From positions 1 to 62,109 of the forward strand of contig LFSR01000055.1 of the NCBI GenBank assembly GCA_001513155.1: 62,109 bases of DNA, given 5' to 3'. This DNA is from Syntrophomonas sp. DTU018. GTDB taxonomy: Bacteria; Bacillota; Syntrophomonadia; Syntrophomonadales; Syntrophomonadaceae. How positions within the stretch are numbered: position 1 is the stretch's first letter; each line of letters starts with the position of its first letter. This document shows positions 10,022 to 21,801 of this stretch, piece after piece. The notes under the pieces are model-generated. The model did no database searches, was not told where the DNA came from, and was given only the letters and a program-made list of their open reading frames with translations. Both the position numbers and the translations under genes were made by a program.

Positions 10022-10582
10022 ATGCAGCTGCAGATGAGATCGCAATTGGCTTTAATTGGCCTGGAAATCAGCAAGCCATTTTTACACCTGCGCACCACTA
10101 GGCCGCAGATAAATCTGCAGATCAAAAAACCGGAATTGCGTATCCATTCACCCCGACCTGAGCTGCATATTGATCAAACCCAGTGTTTTGCCGATGCCGG
10201 CAAGAGGACTCCTTCGGATTTTGCCGCGTATTACGCGGAGATGGCCTGGTCAGATTCCATGGAGGGTATTGCCCGCCGGGCTCAGGAAGGGGACATGCTG
10301 GCTCAAATCCATAAAGGTTATACCATTGAAAAATTAGCCGCGCAGAACTTAGGGGAAATTGCTGATTTCAATGTTACTGCTATTCCCAAGCAACCGCCTC
10401 GTGTTTGGTTTGATACCTATCCGGTTCAGTTTGAATTTGACCCAGGTTACGTTGAAACCCGGTTGCAGATGGGAACAGTGGAAGGGAACCTGCAATGGGG
10501 CAAAGTAAACATATACCTTCGCCAGAAGAATTATTTGGAGATAAATTGGGTAGAAAACAACAAAGTCGATTTAATTGCATAA
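10022..10582 (+). CDS. yviE: DUF6470 (YviE-like) flagellar-locus protein
   Basis: A 186-residue protein recognisable by an N-terminal run of repeated short strands (PQINLQIKKPELRIHSPRPE), the FADAGKRTPSDFAAYYAE segment, and the tail KVNIYLRQKNYLEINW. Homologues lie between flgL and fliW in Bacillus and clostridia. Function is unknown; placement suggests an export or assembly role. ggggag precedes ATG 10022. No signal peptide or membrane segment is seen. Confidence 0.78.
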   Translation: MQLQMRSQLALIGLEISKPFLHLRTTRPQINLQIKKPELRIHSPRPELHIDQTQCFADAGKRTPSDFAAYYAEMAWSDSMEGIARRAQEGDMLAQIHKGYTIEKLAAQNLGEIADFNVTAIPKQPPRVWFDTYPVQFEFDPGYVETRLQMGTVEGNLQWGKVNIYLRQKNYLEINWVENNKVDLIA

Positions 10583-14892: not shown

Positions 14893-14920
14893 TAAAGAAG
14901 TAACCTTTACTTAACGATAT
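14893..14920 (+). promoter_or_regulatory. Candidate sigma-28 (SigD) promoter of the glycosylation operon
   Basis: TAAA (14893-14896), 16 bases, AACGATAT (14913-14920) matches the sigma-28 pattern TAAA-N14-16-GCCGATAW at all four -35 and six of eight -10 positions. It lies 41 bp before the first gene of the operon. Confidence 0.6.
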
Positions 14921-14960: not shown

Positions 14961-15557
14961 GTGCAGCTTATTATTGGAGAAGAATTAATCGAAGTTGACA
15001 ATACTGATGAAGGTATTGAACAACTTTTTGACACCATTGAAGAAAAAGCAGCTAATACACAACTGGTATTCAGCCACCTGATAATTGACGGAGTAGAAGT
15101 GTATGATGATTTCGCTGCTTATCTGCATAACAATCTGGCTAATATCCAAGTTGTAGAAGTACAGTTTATAAGCCTAAAAGAATACATGCAAGACATTTTG
15201 GTTTCCGCCAGTGAATACCTGCAAAGAGCTATTCCTGCAGTAGAGCAGTTGGCTGAGTCTATTTATGCTGAGATGGATACTAATACCTGGCAGCAAATCA
15301 GCCAGCTTATTGAAGGTATTCAGTGGCTTCACGATAGTTTTACAGCTATGGATAAACTACCAAATTTATCAAACCTGGTGAATGACTATGAACAGTGGAA
15401 CTTGTATTCTCAGGCACTTAATGAGTTGGTAGAAGTTGTCACCACAATTAGTGAACCGTTACAGTATACAGATCAGGTTAGTGTAAGCGATATTATATTG
15501 TACGAAATAAAACCAGCCATGGAAAAGCTTTATTCTAACTTATTATTGCTTATATAG
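14961..15557 (+). CDS. Unknown acidic helical protein, first gene of the flagellin-glycosylation operon
   Basis: A 198-residue, strongly acidic protein that I do not recognise. The first ~75 residues look alpha/beta (LIIGEELIEVDNTDEGIEQL, VFSHLIIDGVEVYDDF). The rest is amphipathic helix (YMQDILVSASEYLQRAIPAV, WQQISQLIEGIQWLHDSF). There is no signal peptide or membrane segment. GTG 14961 follows gggaggg at 8-base spacing. It lies behind a sigma-28-like promoter and 13 bp before maf, so it probably works with Maf, for example as a chaperone or adaptor that presents flagellin for modification. That role is inference from context and shape only. Confidence 0.7.
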   Translation: MQLIIGEELIEVDNTDEGIEQLFDTIEEKAANTQLVFSHLIIDGVEVYDDFAAYLHNNLANIQVVEVQFISLKEYMQDILVSASEYLQRAIPAVEQLAESIYAEMDTNTWQQISQLIEGIQWLHDSFTAMDKLPNLSNLVNDYEQWNLYSQALNELVEVVTTISEPLQYTDQVSVSDIILYEIKPAMEKLYSNLLLLI

Positions 15558-15570
15558 TGGGTGAATGCTA

Positions 15571-17442
15571 ATGATTTTAGTGGATAATATTTTATTTATG
15601 AAAGAACGCTTTCCTATGGTATGGGATGCTTATCGGGAGATAGAACTGAAACAGGATGAATATATAATAGAAGAGATGCCTACCAGGTTGGAAAACTATC
15701 CTACCCTATGTGTTCACCGAGGAGATCGCAGTTATTATCTCCACAGCCGCTATGACCCTTTGCGGGAGGCCCAGACTATTACGGACAATATAGATGCTAA
15801 CAGCTATGACCATGTTATATTCTATGGCATCGGCTTGGGCTATCATATCCAAGCTTTCCTTAATAAATATCCTCACCTGAGTTTTTCTATTTATGAACCA
15901 ATCCCAAAAGTATTTGAGACTTATCTTTCCTATTTTGATTTGAGAAATTTGCCGCAACGCCGTCTACGGGAAATAGTGGTGGAAACCTCTCCTCAGGATG
16001 CCCGTAATTTTTTGCAGCGCACCATTACCCAGATTCAAAAAAACATAATATTTGTGGATTTGCCCAGCTATCGAAATGCTTTCCCGGAGCAGTATAATGC
16101 CTTTGTAAAATTGTTTCAGGAAATCGTCAGTGATCGGCGTAATTCTTTAGCTACTGATCTAGCCTTTGAAAAGCGCTGGATTATTAACAGTATGTTTAAT
16201 TTCAAGACTGTATTGGAAACACCTAATATTTTGGCAGAACGGACTGGTCACTTTAAAAACCAGCCAGCTATCTTGGTTGCAGCTGGCCCTTCCCTTGATT
16301 ATGAAATAGAAAATCTCAGACAGATAAAGAAGGATGGATCGGCTTACATCTTCTCAGTAGGATCAGCAGTAAATTCTCTTCTCTCAGCTGGTATTCATCC
16401 TGATGCTCAATGTACATATGATCCGGGGGCAAATAACCAGAATATGGTGTTTGCACGCATTACCAAGGAAGGTATTACTGATATTCCGCTTATTTTTGGC
16501 AGCAGTGTAGGGTTTGAAGTTCTGCAAAACTATCCAGGAAATCATAAGCTTCACATGATTACAAGCCAGGATACTATTTCCTCATTTTTATTAAAGCTGG
16601 ATAATGATATGCAATTAGATGGAGTGATGGATGCTCCGTCTATAGCTGTAGTTACTCTTCAGTTACTCTATAAACTAGGTTTTAATCCAATTATTTTGGT
16701 CGGTCAGAACTTAGCTTATTCAGAAAACCGTCATTATGCAAAGGGTATTGAGTATGGTAAGGATTTTAATATTGATACAGACAAAACACAAGATTTAATA
16801 CGTGTAAAAGACGTAGAAGGACATGAAATATATACAAATTCCAGTTTTAATCGGATGCGGACCAATATGGAGCACTTTATTAAGCAAATGACCGGTGTCA
16901 ACGTTATCAACACCACCCGGGGTGGAGCTCATATTGAGGGAACTACCTATCAAAAAATGGATGACCTTATTTCATCGGGTGTTTTATCTCGGAAGGTTGT
17001 AGAACCTGAATGGTACAAAATACCGCCTACGGTTTACGACAGAGACTATCTATACAAACAGTTTAACCGCTTGGAGAAAGATTATCAGCAGTTGCCAGCA
17101 TTATTGGAGCAGGTTAACCGTACTCTTGAAGAAATCCGAGTTCTTAAAGAGAATCGCAACTATGGGCAGATTAGCCGTAGCTGGCCTAAGTTAGACCAAG
17201 TGTTTAATAAAGTTAAGAGAAATACCTTTTATAAGCAGGTTATACAACCCATGAATCGGGTTACCTACAACTTGTATTTTGAGAAACTGCCGAGTGTACG
17301 TTTTGAACCTGACCAAAAAATGAAAGCGGATGTAATTACATCAAGTTTGGGTCAAGCTATCTATGAAAGTTTGAAAGATCTGCAAATTCTAGCGCCTGTA
17401 ATGCAAATTCTTAAAAAAGATATGGAGGATTTTACTAAATAA
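15571..17442 (+). CDS. maf: Motility accessory factor (Maf) glycosyltransferase, DUF115 family
   Basis: A 623-residue protein of the Maf/DUF115 (MAF_flag10) family, which transfers nonulosonic acids such as pseudaminic or legionaminic acid to flagellin in the cytoplasm. The N-terminal region includes DHVIFYGIGLGYHIQAFL. The central domain shows the family core ILVAAGPSLDYEIENL followed by FSVGSAVNSLLSAGIHPDAQ, then GQNLAYSENRHYA. The C-terminal ~150 residues are helical. ATG 15571 is preferred over 15565, which abuts the gggtga ribosome site. It is followed at 21 bp by the sugar-synthase gene, consistent with one pathway. Acceptor residues on flagellin cannot be seen from sequence. Confidence 0.92.
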   Translation: MILVDNILFMKERFPMVWDAYREIELKQDEYIIEEMPTRLENYPTLCVHRGDRSYYLHSRYDPLREAQTITDNIDANSYDHVIFYGIGLGYHIQAFLNKYPHLSFSIYEPIPKVFETYLSYFDLRNLPQRRLREIVVETSPQDARNFLQRTITQIQKNIIFVDLPSYRNAFPEQYNAFVKLFQEIVSDRRNSLATDLAFEKRWIINSMFNFKTVLETPNILAERTGHFKNQPAILVAAGPSLDYEIENLRQIKKDGSAYIFSVGSAVNSLLSAGIHPDAQCTYDPGANNQNMVFARITKEGITDIPLIFGSSVGFEVLQNYPGNHKLHMITSQDTISSFLLKLDNDMQLDGVMDAPSIAVVTLQLLYKLGFNPIILVGQNLAYSENRHYAKGIEYGKDFNIDTDKTQDLIRVKDVEGHEIYTNSSFNRMRTNMEHFIKQMTGVNVINTTRGGAHIEGTTYQKMDDLISSGVLSRKVVEPEWYKIPPTVYDRDYLYKQFNRLEKDYQQLPALLEQVNRTLEEIRVLKENRNYGQISRSWPKLDQVFNKVKRNTFYKQVIQPMNRVTYNLYFEKLPSVRFEPDQKMKADVITSSLGQAIYESLKDLQILAPVMQILKKDMEDFTK

Positions 17443-17463
17443 AATACAGGAGGCTATAAGAGA

Positions 17464-18348
17464 ATGAATTTCATGAGAATAGAACCCCCCATTGTAATTG
17501 CTGAAATTGGCTGTAATCATAAAGGAGATTTGGAAATTGCCAAAGAGATGATTCTTACAGCGAAGGTATTTTGCAAGGTGGATGCAGTGAAATTTCAGAA
17601 AAGAAGTGTCAAGGAAATTTTAACCCCGGAGGAATACAATGCTCCCCATCCGAACCCATATCATTCTTACGGCAAAACATACGGGGAGCATAGAGAATTT
17701 TTGGAATTTTCCTTGGAACAACACCTGGAACTAAAAAAATTATGCGATGAACAGGGTATTACTTATAGCTGCTCAGTATGGGATTTGACATCTGCAAAAG
17801 AAATTGCCTCGTTAGACCCTCCATTCATAAAAATTCCTTCCGCTTTGAGTGACAATTATGAAGTGTTAGGATGGTTATGCTCTAACTATTCGGGGGATAT
17901 ACATGTTTCTACTGGTATGACAACTAAGCACGAAATAAAAAGCATAGTGGATTTCTTTATTAAGCATAAACGTAACCATGATCTGGTGCTTTATCACTGT
18001 ACATCAGGATATCCTATTGAATTCAAGGATGCCTGTTTGCTAGAAATCGTTCGTCTTAGAAAAGAATATGGAGATATTGTAAAGGCAATTGGTTTTTCTG
18101 GACATCATAATGGAATTGCTATAGATATTGCTGCTTATACGCTTGGAGCATCTATTATTGAGAGGCATTATACACTTGACAGAACCTGGAAGGGGACTGA
18201 TCACGCTGCATCTCTTGAACCTGATGGGTTAAGAAAATTAAAGAGAGATTTGATGGCTGCTTACGAAGCCCTTCAATTCAAACAAGTTGACATACTCGAA
18301 ATAGAAGAACCACAGAGGAGAAAGCTGAGATGGAACCGCAATCAATAG
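17464..18348 (+). CDS. NeuB-family sialic/nonulosonic acid synthase lacking the SAF domain
   Basis: A 294-residue TIM-barrel synthase that condenses phosphoenolpyruvate with a six-carbon sugar. Family signatures are IVIAEIGCNHKGDLEIAKEM, VDAVKFQKR, FIKIPSALSDNYEVL, HVSTGMTTKHEI and the strong IIERHYTLDRTWKGTDHAAS near residue 240. Usual NeuB/SpsE/PseI enzymes are about 335-350 residues and end in an antifreeze-like SAF domain that closes the partner's active site. Here the protein stops after the barrel, so the SAF domain is missing. It overlaps the next gene by 19 bp. The fused phosphatase next door suggests the product may be a 9-phosphate; that is inference. The aggagg site is 10 bases upstream of ATG 17464. 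Confidence 0.87.
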   Translation: MNFMRIEPPIVIAEIGCNHKGDLEIAKEMILTAKVFCKVDAVKFQKRSVKEILTPEEYNAPHPNPYHSYGKTYGEHREFLEFSLEQHLELKKLCDEQGITYSCSVWDLTSAKEIASLDPPFIKIPSALSDNYEVLGWLCSNYSGDIHVSTGMTTKHEIKSIVDFFIKHKRNHDLVLYHCTSGYPIEFKDACLLEIVRLRKEYGDIVKAIGFSGHHNGIAIDIAAYTLGASIIERHYTLDRTWKGTDHAASLEPDGLRKLKRDLMAAYEALQFKQVDILEIEEPQRRKLRWNRNQ

Positions 18349-19541
18349 TTGCCTTCATACCAGTGCGTGGAGGAAGCAAATCCATATATCTTAAAAATAT
18401 TAAGCCTTTGGCAGGTAGACCTTTGATTTTTTGGACTCTTGATGCTGCGTTAGGTTGTAAGTACATAGATTATGTTTATGTAAGCACGGATAGCCAAGAT
18501 ATAGCCCAGACAGTGGAATACTATCGGGAAAAACTTTCTTTTAATGACCGTAATAAGATACAGTGCATCGGGCGGAGCCCCGAAACTGCCACGGATACTG
18601 CCAGTACAGAATCAGCTATGCTGGAATTTGCCCGTAGCCATATATTTGAAATCATCGTTTTAATTCAAGCGACCAGTCCATTACTGACTTCATTTCATCT
18701 AGAACAAGCTATCTGCAAGTATAACCTTGGCCAATATGATAGTATGTTGTCTCTGGTGCGGCAAAAACGTTTTATTTGGCATGAGGATGTTGAAGGAATT
18801 GTCAAGCCTGTTAATTATGATCCGCAAAATCGGCCAAGACGACAGGAAATGAGTGGGTTCTTGGTTGAAAACGGTTCATTCTACATAACCACTCGGCAAA
18901 GATTACTTGATACAGGCTGTCGGATATCAGGGCGAATCGGATTTTATGAGATGCCGGAAGAAACTTATTTTGAGATCGATGAACCTTCTGATTGGATAAT
19001 TGTCGAACAGTTGCTGTTGCACAGAAATTGTTCAACATTAGAAAGTACCCTGCAAGAAAAGATAAACAGAGTTAAATTAGTTGCTATGGACTGTGATGGG
19101 GTGCTGACTGATGGGGGAATGTACTATTCTGATGATGGGACAGAACTGAAAAAATTTAATACTCGAGATGGGATGGGTATTGCCCTGCTCCATCAAAATG
19201 GAATCAAAACTGCTATTATCACCGGAGAAAATAATGAACTAGTCAAAAGGCGTGCTGATAAATTAAATGCGGATTATGTTTATTTAGGAATAAAAGACAA
19301 ACTTGCTGTAATACGGGAGATAATTAGCAAGGAGAACATCACTTTAGATGAAATCGCTTATATAGGAGATGACATTAATGATCTGCCTGCTATGCAGCAT
19401 GTGGGCATTAAGTTTTCAGTTAATGATGCTATGGATAAGGTAAAGTCAATAGCTGACTATGTAGCTAAGTTAAATGGAGGGCGGGGCGCAGTTAGAGAAA
19501 TAGCTGAACTGATTATTTTTTCTAAGAATATACCAAGGTAA
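18330..19541 (+). CDS. CMP-nonulosonate cytidylyltransferase fused to KdsC-like HAD phosphatase
   Basis: A 403-residue fusion. Residues 1-~240 are a NeuA-type cytidylyltransferase: FIPVRGGSKSIYLKNIKPL nucleotide loop, LIQATSPLL, SGFLVENGSFYIT and FEIDEPSDW. Residues ~248-403 are a KdsC-type HAD phosphatase with DCDGVLTDGGMYYSDDG (motif I), AIITGE (II), Lys in GIKDKLAV (III) and YIGDDINDLPAM (IV); the catalytic residues look intact. The predicted role is to dephosphorylate the sugar acid and activate it with CTP for Maf. Vertebrate CMP-sialic acid synthetase has the same domain order. The start overlaps the synthase gene, with gaggag upstream. The HAD half might instead be mainly structural. 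Confidence 0.9.
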   Translation: MEPQSIVAFIPVRGGSKSIYLKNIKPLAGRPLIFWTLDAALGCKYIDYVYVSTDSQDIAQTVEYYREKLSFNDRNKIQCIGRSPETATDTASTESAMLEFARSHIFEIIVLIQATSPLLTSFHLEQAICKYNLGQYDSMLSLVRQKRFIWHEDVEGIVKPVNYDPQNRPRRQEMSGFLVENGSFYITTRQRLLDTGCRISGRIGFYEMPEETYFEIDEPSDWIIVEQLLLHRNCSTLESTLQEKINRVKLVAMDCDGVLTDGGMYYSDDGTELKKFNTRDGMGIALLHQNGIKTAIITGENNELVKRRADKLNADYVYLGIKDKLAVIREIISKENITLDEIAYIGDDINDLPAMQHVGIKFSVNDAMDKVKSIADYVAKLNGGRGAVREIAELIIFSKNIPR

Positions 19542-19592: not shown

Positions 19593-19620
19593 TCAAGGAA
19601 TATACTTACTTTTTCGATAT
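19593..19620 (+). promoter_or_regulatory. Candidate sigma-28 promoter of the EF-hand gene
   Basis: TCAA (19593-19596), 16 bases, TTCGATAT (19613-19620). It has the same spacing and CGATAT core as the site at 14893 and lies 86 bp before the gene. No other gene is seen in 19542-19705. Confidence 0.5.
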
Positions 19621-19705: not shown

Positions 19706-20764
19706 ATGATAATAGCCAGCAGTAATATTGCCATGCAATCTTCTCATTTTCTGAAAGAATCCGTCACCCGCGAAGAAAGGCTGCAGTTTTGGGTGGGCAA
19801 CCGGGAAAAACCGCAAAATTCCGCTCAATCCAATTTATCCCAAGCAGCACTGGAAGATATTGTTGACCGGGTAGATTTGTCTTCCCAGGCCCGATCCATC
19901 CAGCGCTTGGACACCGGAGAGAACTGCGAGGAAGTGGAGCTTACTCCGGAGGAAAAGCTGAAAATCAGGTTGATTGAGTCTTTGCTGGAATTCTTGACCG
20001 GGAAAAAGGTAAAGCTTAAAATTCCCAAGCTGCCGGATAAGAGCCTCACTCTGATTTCCCAACCAATGCAGATGCAAAGCCAGCCGGCTCAAGCAGGCTG
20101 GGGATTGCAGTACGATTTCCGGGAAACCAGGTTTGAGCATGAACAGACGACCTTCCAGGCAAGAGGCCAGGTAAAAACTGCCGATGGCAAGACAATTAAT
20201 ATTTCTATACAGTTGAACATGAGCCGGACTTTTTACAGTCACCAGAGCATCAGCATACGGGCTGGCGATGCTGTACCCATAGATCCTCTGGTGATAAATT
20301 TCGATGCACCGGCGGCCGCTTTGACGGAGCGCAATTTCCGGTTTGATCTGGACTGTGACGGCAATCCTGATCAGATTTCGTTTGTAGGACCAGGCAGCGG
20401 TTTCTTGGTTCTGGATAAGAATGGTGACGGTTTGATAAATGATGGCTCTGAACTGTTCGGACCCCAAACGGGTAACGGTTTCGCTGAATTAGCGGCTTAT
20501 GATCAGGACGGCAATGGGTGGATAGATGAAGCTGACGAGATTTATCACCGCTTGCGGATATGGACCCGGGATGAGCAGGACAATGAGGTCCTGTTTGCTT
20601 TAGGGGAGAAAGGCATCGGTGCCATATACCTGGGCTATGCCGATACCGACTTCAGCATGCGGGATAGCCAGAACCAGGAAAACGGTCAGCTGCGCAGCAC
20701 GGGTATATTCTTGAGGGAAAACGGCACTGCCGGCAGCATCCAGCAGGTTGACTTGTTAGCTTGA
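19706..20764 (+). CDS. EF-hand-like calcium-binding protein of unknown function in the flagellar locus
   Basis: A 352-residue protein. Three Asp-rich loops lie near the C-terminus: DLDCDGNPD (from ~213), DKNGDGLINDGSELFG (from ~237) and DQDGNGWIDEADEIY (from ~266). The second and third match EF-hand/dockerin-like calcium loops. Residues ~155-200 look beta-rich (INISIQLNMSRTFYSHQSIS). The N-terminal third is polar and low in structure with DLSSQARSIQ, a style seen in proteins exported by flagellar systems; no Sec signal is visible. Homologous proteins with the NDGSELFG loop occur in many motile bacteria without an assigned role. A sigma-28-like promoter and its place between the glycosylation operon and flaG argue for a filament or surface role. 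Confidence 0.75.
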   Translation: MIIASSNIAMQSSHFLKESVTREERLQFWVGNREKPQNSAQSNLSQAALEDIVDRVDLSSQARSIQRLDTGENCEEVELTPEEKLKIRLIESLLEFLTGKKVKLKIPKLPDKSLTLISQPMQMQSQPAQAGWGLQYDFRETRFEHEQTTFQARGQVKTADGKTINISIQLNMSRTFYSHQSISIRAGDAVPIDPLVINFDAPAAALTERNFRFDLDCDGNPDQISFVGPGSGFLVLDKNGDGLINDGSELFGPQTGNGFAELAAYDQDGNGWIDEADEIYHRLRIWTRDEQDNEVLFALGEKGIGAIYLGYADTDFSMRDSQNQENGQLRSTGIFLRENGTAGSIQQVDLLA

Positions 20765-20881: not shown

Positions 20882-20909
20882 TAAAGCTACAGGTCAAACA
20901 TTACGATAA
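20882..20909 (+). promoter_or_regulatory. Candidate sigma-28 promoter of the flaG-fliS operon
   Basis: TAAA (20882-20885), 16 bases, TACGATAA (20902-20909). It matches sigma-28 at four of four and six of eight positions with the same spacing as the two upstream candidates, 31 bp before flaG. Confidence 0.6.
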
Positions 20910-20940: not shown

Positions 20941-21312
20941 ATGCGGGTTGATATGCAAAGGATGGCAGTAATAGATTATCCCGCTAGGGACGCTCAGTTT
21001 CGCTCTGAGCCTCAGGAATCGGCCGAGGTTAAGCGGCGGGACCGGGCAGCAGAGAATAAAAATGACAAACCTGTAGATGCGGAAAAATTACGGGCTGCGA
21101 TTGAATTAACCAATGATGCTATCCGTATCACCAATTATCATCTGGAATTCAGGCTCCATCAAGACAGCGGTCGCTATCAGGTGAAAGTGATCGATTCCCA
21201 AAGCCAGGAGGTCATAAGAGAGATTCCGCCGGAAAAGATGTTGGAGTTTTCGGCCCATATCAAGCAACTTCTGGATAAGGCTATGGGACTCCTGGTGGAT
21301 GAAATAGCTTGA
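20941..21312 (+). CDS. flaG: FlaG family flagellar protein
   Basis: A 123-residue protein. The N-terminal ~45 residues are variable and charged. The C-terminal FlaG domain runs from AAIELTNDAIRITNYHLEF through YQVKVIDSQSQEVIREIPPE to the final helix MLEFSAHIKQLLDKAMGLLV. FlaG is a late flagellar protein that influences filament length in some species. ggagg precedes ATG 20941. It heads a run of small late genes: flaG, fliS, a FliT-like gene and a helical protein. Confidence 0.88.
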   Translation: MRVDMQRMAVIDYPARDAQFRSEPQESAEVKRRDRAAENKNDKPVDAEKLRAAIELTNDAIRITNYHLEFRLHQDSGRYQVKVIDSQSQEVIREIPPEKMLEFSAHIKQLLDKAMGLLVDEIA

Positions 21313-21375: not shown

Positions 21376-21801
21376 ATGCACATGAATGCTCAGGTCTATG
21401 ATCAATACCGCAAAACATCGGTGGAGACTCTGTCACCGGCTAAGCTGCTGTTAATGCTGTATGATGGAGCTCTGAACTTCTTGAGCAATGCTAAAAAAGC
21501 CATCGAGGAAAAGGATATTCCCCGGGCTCATAGCCAGATCGTCAGGGCTCAGGATATAGTTGTGGAATTAATGGCAACCTTGAATATGGATATCCCGCTG
21601 TCCAATCAGCTTTATGCTCTATATGACTATATTCATCGCCGGTTAGTTGAGGCTAATATTAAAAAAGACCCGGCTATAATTGACGAAGCCAGTCATTTTC
21701 TCAGGGAATTGCGGGATGCTTTCGCTCAGGCTGCCCGTGAAGCCGGAAGATCTCGTATTCCAAATAATACTGAAGCCAAAAAACTCAATATTATGGGTTA
21801 G
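21376..21801 (+). CDS. fliS: Flagellin export chaperone FliS
   Basis: A 141-residue four-helix protein. Signatures are YDQYRKTSVETLSPAKLLLMLYDGAL at the N-terminus and LMATLNMDIPLSNQLYALYDYI in the middle. FliS binds the C-terminal helix of flagellin and prevents early polymerisation. In Firmicutes it also bears on the FliW/CsrA loop by competing for flagellin. ATG 21376 is chosen; ATG 21382 is a possible alternative. Confidence 0.93.
   Translation: MHMNAQVYDQYRKTSVETLSPAKLLLMLYDGALNFLSNAKKAIEEKDIPRAHSQIVRAQDIVVELMATLNMDIPLSNQLYALYDYIHRRLVEANIKKDPAIIDEASHFLRELRDAFAQAAREAGRSRIPNNTEAKKLNIMG

Follow-up and report, generated by a model that had tools for sequence, protein, structure and literature searches.

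The self-processing module (SPM) is known from FrpC of Neisseria meningitidis (structures 6sjw and 6sjx) and from ApxIVA, and it has been put to use in NeissLock. When it binds Ca2+ the FrpC SPM cuts the Asp414-Pro415 bond, forming an aspartyl anhydride, and the aspartate links to lysine amines; after the cut the module begins at Pro415 (PMC7078468, in its accessible text). The same text describes the SPM as exclusive to RTX proteins of Gram-negatives. Two other systems come near to what we describe here. FtxA of Filifactor alocis, a Firmicute RTX protein, has an SPM-like region for which self-processing has been suggested by analogy (PMC7692872, in the portion available). FrhA of Vibrio cholerae is an RTX-like hemagglutinin under flagellar control (PMC3034196, in the portion available).

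This work concerns a short unnamed protein family, under a flagellar-type promoter, which ends in a sister form of the SPM. The member that led us to it lies in the window, by which we mean the whole 62,109-nucleotide stretch of DNA that was analysed. Its features are collected in Table 1. We will argue that the module is an SPM and that the family belongs with the flagellar genes, and then weigh what such a protein may do.

Table 1. Features of the family gene and its nearest flagellar neighbours in the window
Feature	Position	Strand	Remarks
Sigma-28-like site upstream of the 352-residue ORF	19593..19620	+	score 8.4, weak
Family ORF, ATG start, 352 aa	19706..20764	+	N-terminal domain plus C-terminal FrpC-type SPM
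N-terminal domain, residues 1-193	19706..20284	+	without Pfam or NCBIfam family
Asp193-Pro194 codons, predicted scissile bond	20282..20287	+	equivalent of FrpC Asp414-Pro415
SPM homologue, residues 194-352	20285..20761	+	phmmer and VIA-align to 6sjw
Calcium-type loop D237-E249	20414..20452	+	FrpC D462-E474
Calcium-type loop D266-D277	20501..20536	+	FrpC loop starting at D499
flaG, the next gene	20941..21312	+	PF03646, E 1.1e-23
fliS	21376..21801	+	PF02561, E 2.3e-41

The C-terminal module, its calcium sites and its boundary

Residues 194-352 match the FrpC SPM (PDB 6sjw) with a phmmer E of 7.8e-11, and a profile built from 71 family members reaches it at 5.7e-13. The AlphaFold2 model of the 352-residue protein (mean pLDDT 80, pTM 0.65) has 6sjx as its sole Foldseek match below 0.001 (E 3.4e-10). 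VIA-align 2 maps model residues 194 to 352 onto residues 1 to 170 of the 6sjw chain, with Z 16.9 and rmsd 2.9 over 147 aligned residues; 6sjx scores Z 16.4 and the subsequent rows fall to 3.0 and 2.3. Across the phmmer, profile, Foldseek and VIA-align comparisons, no structure other than the FrpC SPM emerges as a confident relative of this protein. The sequence matches and the modelled fold support the view that the C-terminal module is a homologue of the FrpC-type SPM.

This changes the preliminary description, which called the protein EF-hand-like and of a type with no assigned function. The Pfam EF-hand scores are below threshold (13.5 bits for EF-hand_7, whose cut-off is 30, and 11.7 for EF-hand_6, whose cut-off is 25), and the predicted structure points to the SPM fold, to which the loops belong. 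A search of the protein against NCBIfam gave no match. A generic EF-hand or FG-GAP protein is ruled out by the sub-threshold Pfam scores together with the match to the SPM fold. Nor was it quite right, for the module, to say that no function was assigned, since it is an FrpC-type SPM with the scissile Asp-Pro kept. The two calcium-type loops reported at D237 and D266 are real; the residues at their ligand positions hardly vary across our alignment of 116 distinct rows, drawn from 120 family hits. By analogy with FrpC, the protein likely binds calcium.

The calcium sites differ from those of FrpC, which has four stable ones: 419-424 with 456, 462-474, 499-511 and 521-532. The second and third are retained as 237-249 and 266-277. 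The first is lost, with N198, D200, P202 and S231 in its place in the window protein, and the 521-532 loop, the third EF-like one, is four residues shorter in the family. FrpC Asp478 and Asp579 are the ligands of a transient fifth Ca2+ (PMC7078468, accessible text). Among 115 rows, the position of Asp478 is held by Pro253 or its substitutes (P 86, A 19, T 10) and that of Asp579 by Gln347 (Q 76, H 27, E 10, K 2). These positions can be compared with SPM fragments of the RTX type, of which we took 20 from other open reading frames. Position 253 is Asp in just one of the 20, so an acid of the Asp478 kind is not general; position 347 is Glu or Asp in 19 of the 20, so Gln347 marks this subfamily. 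Asp349 (D in 110 rows and N in 5 of 115) could be a candidate replacement for Asp579, judging from its conservation. We do not regard it as the positional equivalent, since the wider alignment puts Asp579 at Gln347.

The first residue of the 6sjw chain is matched by Pro194, and the cut FrpC module starts at Pro415, so Pro194 falls on Pro415. The Asp193-Pro194 pair is found in 115 of the 116 rows; the other one is gapped there. The spacer from Gly187 to Asp193 varies in sequence and in length (3 to 7 residues, 116 rows), so Asp193 is not fixed by its surroundings. The site is covered by 19 of the RTX-type fragments; all 19 have the proline and 16 have the aspartate. The SPM fold itself therefore does not demand Asp. 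The three exceptions (L138, L125 and L129) read Thr-Pro, Ser-Pro or Pro-Pro, so SPMs that do not cleave may exist in nature.

A boundary at this site is also suggested by more distant matches. In a sample of Pseudomonadota, the phylum to which the Methylomonas locus L034 belongs, the family profile matches 47 of 249 genomes. Five of the matches span most of the protein and the rest sit inside mostly long open reading frames. Of 84 matches that start beyond profile position 100, 56 start at positions 192-195, where the Asp is 195. The common unit must therefore start at about the Asp-Pro, and residues 1-193 are a separate domain.

That domain has no family in Pfam or NCBIfam and no Foldseek match at E<=0.001. 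Predicted alone (pLDDT 78.5, pTM 0.49) it has three long antiparallel strands of about 25-28 residues (3-30, 132-158 and 163-187), a helix at 81-98 and some stretches of low confidence. Its top VIA-align value is Z 6.5, to the long hairpins of MACPF pores, with gasdermins lower. Such values are common, and we do not claim kinship with either group. A resemblance to FlgM was short, with an hhalign 'Prob' of 0.6, and was dropped.

Promoters, flagellin and gene neighbours

The family gene was originally described as embedded among flagellar genes, and our Pfam searches agree. On one side is a pair of genes that we take to be NeuB-like and NeuA-like; on the other are flaG, fliS and genes for FliT-like and FlgN-like proteins. 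The surrounding region has genes for FlgM, flagellin and a DUF6470 protein by Pfam, and presumably also those for FlgN, FlgK, FlgL, FliW and FliD. The DUF6470 protein (PF20074, E 7.2e-43) is at 10022-10582 within the flagellar cluster. A 198-residue protein at 14961-15557, with no Pfam match above cut-off, adjoins the flagellin gene and is preceded by a fair sigma-28-like site at 14893-14920 (score 9.4). The stretch 15565-19541 encodes an MptE-like/Maf-type protein (PF01973, Maf_flag10_N) followed by what are presumably a NeuB-like gene and a fusion that resembles a HAD phosphatase joined to a CMP-sugar synthetase. These genes probably serve flagellin glycosylation. Elsewhere in the window, the translation of an ORF on the minus strand at 325-987 has one block several times over, as would come from a short direct repeat array, and this ORF is probably spurious.

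Upstream regions were scored against TAAA-N14..16-GCCGATAA, which we take to be the consensus of sigma-28 (FliA/sigma-D). The sigma-28-like promoter of the preliminary description holds for the family much better than for the gene in which it was seen. The window gene's own match is weak: its shuffle p is 0.59 and the window contains 169 sites that score no lower, while flaG has a better site at 20882-20909. Across the family the sites are strong. When each upstream region is compared with shuffled versions of itself, 79 of 115 are at p<=0.05, in a set of rows that includes some loci twice. A score of at least 10 is reached upstream of 39 of 77 distinct named homologues (80 named loci minus three with an incomplete 5' end or fewer than 250 bases upstream) and 16 of 696 control genes, these being other genes of the same loci whose upstream stretches include intragenic and operon-internal ones (Mann-Whitney p 1.5e-34). 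Near-perfect sites, scoring at least 11, precede homologues from Clostridia, Gammaproteobacteria, Desulfocapsa, Desulfogranum, Nitrospirae and a Lentisphaerae MAG. We believe these upstream motifs support the placing of the family under sigma-28, as late members of the flagellar regulon.

The distribution of the gene points the same way. We sampled 398 genomes from the phylum of the window. Flagellin is present in 326 and a family match, in some cases partial, in 44; when the two lists were compared by eye all 44 carriers were among the flagellin-positive genomes (hypergeometric 8.7e-5, uncorrected for kinship). Flagellin was also found in 70 of the 78 named carriers searched (35/40 and 35/38), FHIPEP in 7 of the 8 without it, and flagellin again in all three additional Pseudomonadota carriers. 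The idea that homologues are found mainly in non-motile bacteria, raised earlier as what would overturn the flagellar association, is contradicted by the 44 of 44. The association itself is borne out by promoters across the family, by flagellin in every one of those carriers and by linkage to flaG in relatives. With 44 carriers in 398 genomes, and the gene absent from most of the flagellated ones, it is not a core flagellar gene.

FlaG is near the gene in 7 of 10 relatives (L002, L003, L004, L006, L007, L010 and L011). Of the 80 named loci, only 6 have nearby one or more of 16 proteins encoded in the flagellar region of the window. The most frequent upstream neighbours (80 of 95 listed were scanned) are Ferrochelatase with 6, FlaG with 3 and UDG with 3; downstream (77 of 94 listed) it is the methyl-accepting chemotaxis (MCP) signal domain with 8. 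An operon conserved across phyla was not found among these 80 upstream and 77 downstream neighbours, which were called by a simple longest-ORF method that probably yields some false ORFs in GC-rich loci and left five loci without neighbours. The gene has few flagellar neighbours except in the group to which the window belongs, and is thus for the most part a dispersed regulon member with a promoter of its own. By their record titles, many of them MAGs, family members come from Firmicutes, Proteobacteria, Desulfobulbaceae and relatives, Nitrospirae and others. One genome (L103) has a tandem pair, at 288-1409 and 1474-2577 of its locus.

Proposed cleavage and linking, and the alternatives

Our main reading, which we hold at a probability of about 0.5, is that this is a sigma-28-controlled, non-RTX SPM protein that would cut itself outside the cell upon binding Ca2+ and may link its N-terminal part to the flagellum or a surface. 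It would be transcribed late in flagellar assembly, with the sigma-28 genes of class III. Cytosolic Ca2+ is low and the SPM would remain unfolded there, a state that suits a narrow export channel, and the simplest route out would be the flagellar type III apparatus. Once outside, Ca2+ would fold the SPM, which would strain and cut Asp193-Pro194 and leave the N-terminal fragment with a reactive aspartyl anhydride at its C-terminus. The anhydride could then join lysine amines of an adjacent protein in the filament, the cap, the cell surface or the substratum. The N-terminal domain has 12 lysines in 193 residues and the SPM 2 in 159; with those 12, self-linking within the N-terminal domain would also be possible.

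The steps are not equally secure. Because the Asp-Pro is conserved, cleavage at Asp193-Pro194 is strongly suggested, and by analogy with FrpC we consider Ca2+-triggered cleavage there to be somewhat probable; we rate it no higher because of the FrpC positions that have changed. For export by the flagellar apparatus we see roughly even odds. The first description noted a polar N-terminus lacking a Sec signal, and this extends to the family, as no row of 116 has a 12-residue hydropathy maximum of at least 1.6 within the first 45 residues. As a check on type I secretion, the protein's own genome was searched for OEP (PF02321), which gave three weak partial matches above cut-off, so this route is also conceivable. 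Covalent linking in the cell, reasoned from the chemistry of FrpC, is a tentative step that may well fail. Doubtful, though worth stating, is the full picture of a clip-and-link protein of several phyla, one that would be exported unfolded through the flagellar channel, folded by Ca2+, cut by itself, and have its N-terminal domain welded to filament, surface or substratum.

The most serious objection is that the SPM fold may not cleave here at all. It would then be a Ca2+-folded switch for export or assembly, and Asp193-Pro194 would be kept for the geometry of the turn. The equivalents of FrpC Asp478 and Asp579 have been replaced and two Ca2+ sites are gone, and in FrpC these acids matter: D579A abolished cleavage, and D478A reduced it significantly, with a moderate drop for D478N (PMC7078468, accessible text). 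However, D579N still cleaved according to the same text, so a Gln at that position need not be fatal, and Asp349 could stand in for Asp579. The invariance of Asp193 beside a spacer of variable length also counts against a purely structural role. Asp is lost in 3 of 19 RTX-type fragments that have the proline, so geometry alone needs no Asp. We consider a non-cleaving module unlikely.

Another possibility is cleavage that is not followed by linking. The SPM would remove itself after export and thereby let the long-stranded N-terminal domain assemble, while the anhydride would be hydrolysed. This would fit the placing of the module boundary at the Asp-Pro and the conservation of the N-terminal domain as a unit of its own. 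Yet SPMs of the FrpC type do link lysines in vitro (PMC7078468, accessible text), and we find this course improbable. Least probable by far is an ordinary cytoplasmic Ca2+ sensor, EF-hand or calmodulin-like, which sits beside flagellar genes by chance. The two canonical loops and the weak Pfam EF-hand scores are what speak for it; the fold match is to the SPM and not to an EF-hand, and a chance location does not agree with sigma-28-like promoters and the co-occurrence with flagellin across phyla. We therefore prefer the reading in which the protein cuts and links itself outside the cell. If it does cleave, the late flagellar programme of motile bacteria would include a covalent linking step set off by Ca2+, and divergent modules would be added to the tool set of NeissLock. 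If the full clip-and-link picture is true, a covalent self-attachment chemistry would be built into the flagellar regulon.

Comparison with described systems

The family shares with the FrpC SPM its predicted fold, the order of its elements, the Asp-Pro at its N-terminal boundary and two of the four Ca2+ loops, and Trp286 is conserved as FrpC Trp519. It differs from FrpC in having changed equivalents of Asp478, Asp579, Trp451, Asp456 and Asp419 and a shortened third EF-like loop. The window protein has 352 residues against more than 1,000, and the family has sigma-28-type promoters. Unlike RTX proteins that bear an SPM it has no RTX repeats, and its chain ends at the module, which leaves no space for an array. 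The long RTX or 'calcium-binding' proteins on chromosomes and plasmids of Pseudomonadota have the module in common with the family from about the Asp-Pro onward and lack its N-terminal domain; none of 53 plasmid records covers 80% of the query.

FtxA is a long RTX protein, unlike the short family of the window, and the available text of PMC7692872 does not mention flagella. FrhA is alike in being an RTX-type exported protein in a flagellar hierarchy; it is a cadherin-type RTX adhesin for which the portion of PMC3034196 at hand mentions no SPM, and we set it beside the family by its description. In the open-access literature we found no short non-RTX flagellar-regulon family with an SPM, nor an SPM-flagella link of this sort. 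At the level of sequence and predicted fold, this family contradicts the idea that SPMs are exclusive to Gram-negative RTX proteins. The SPM was known, as was the SPM-like region in the Firmicute FtxA; what is new here is a short, non-RTX family of the flagellar regulon that has one.
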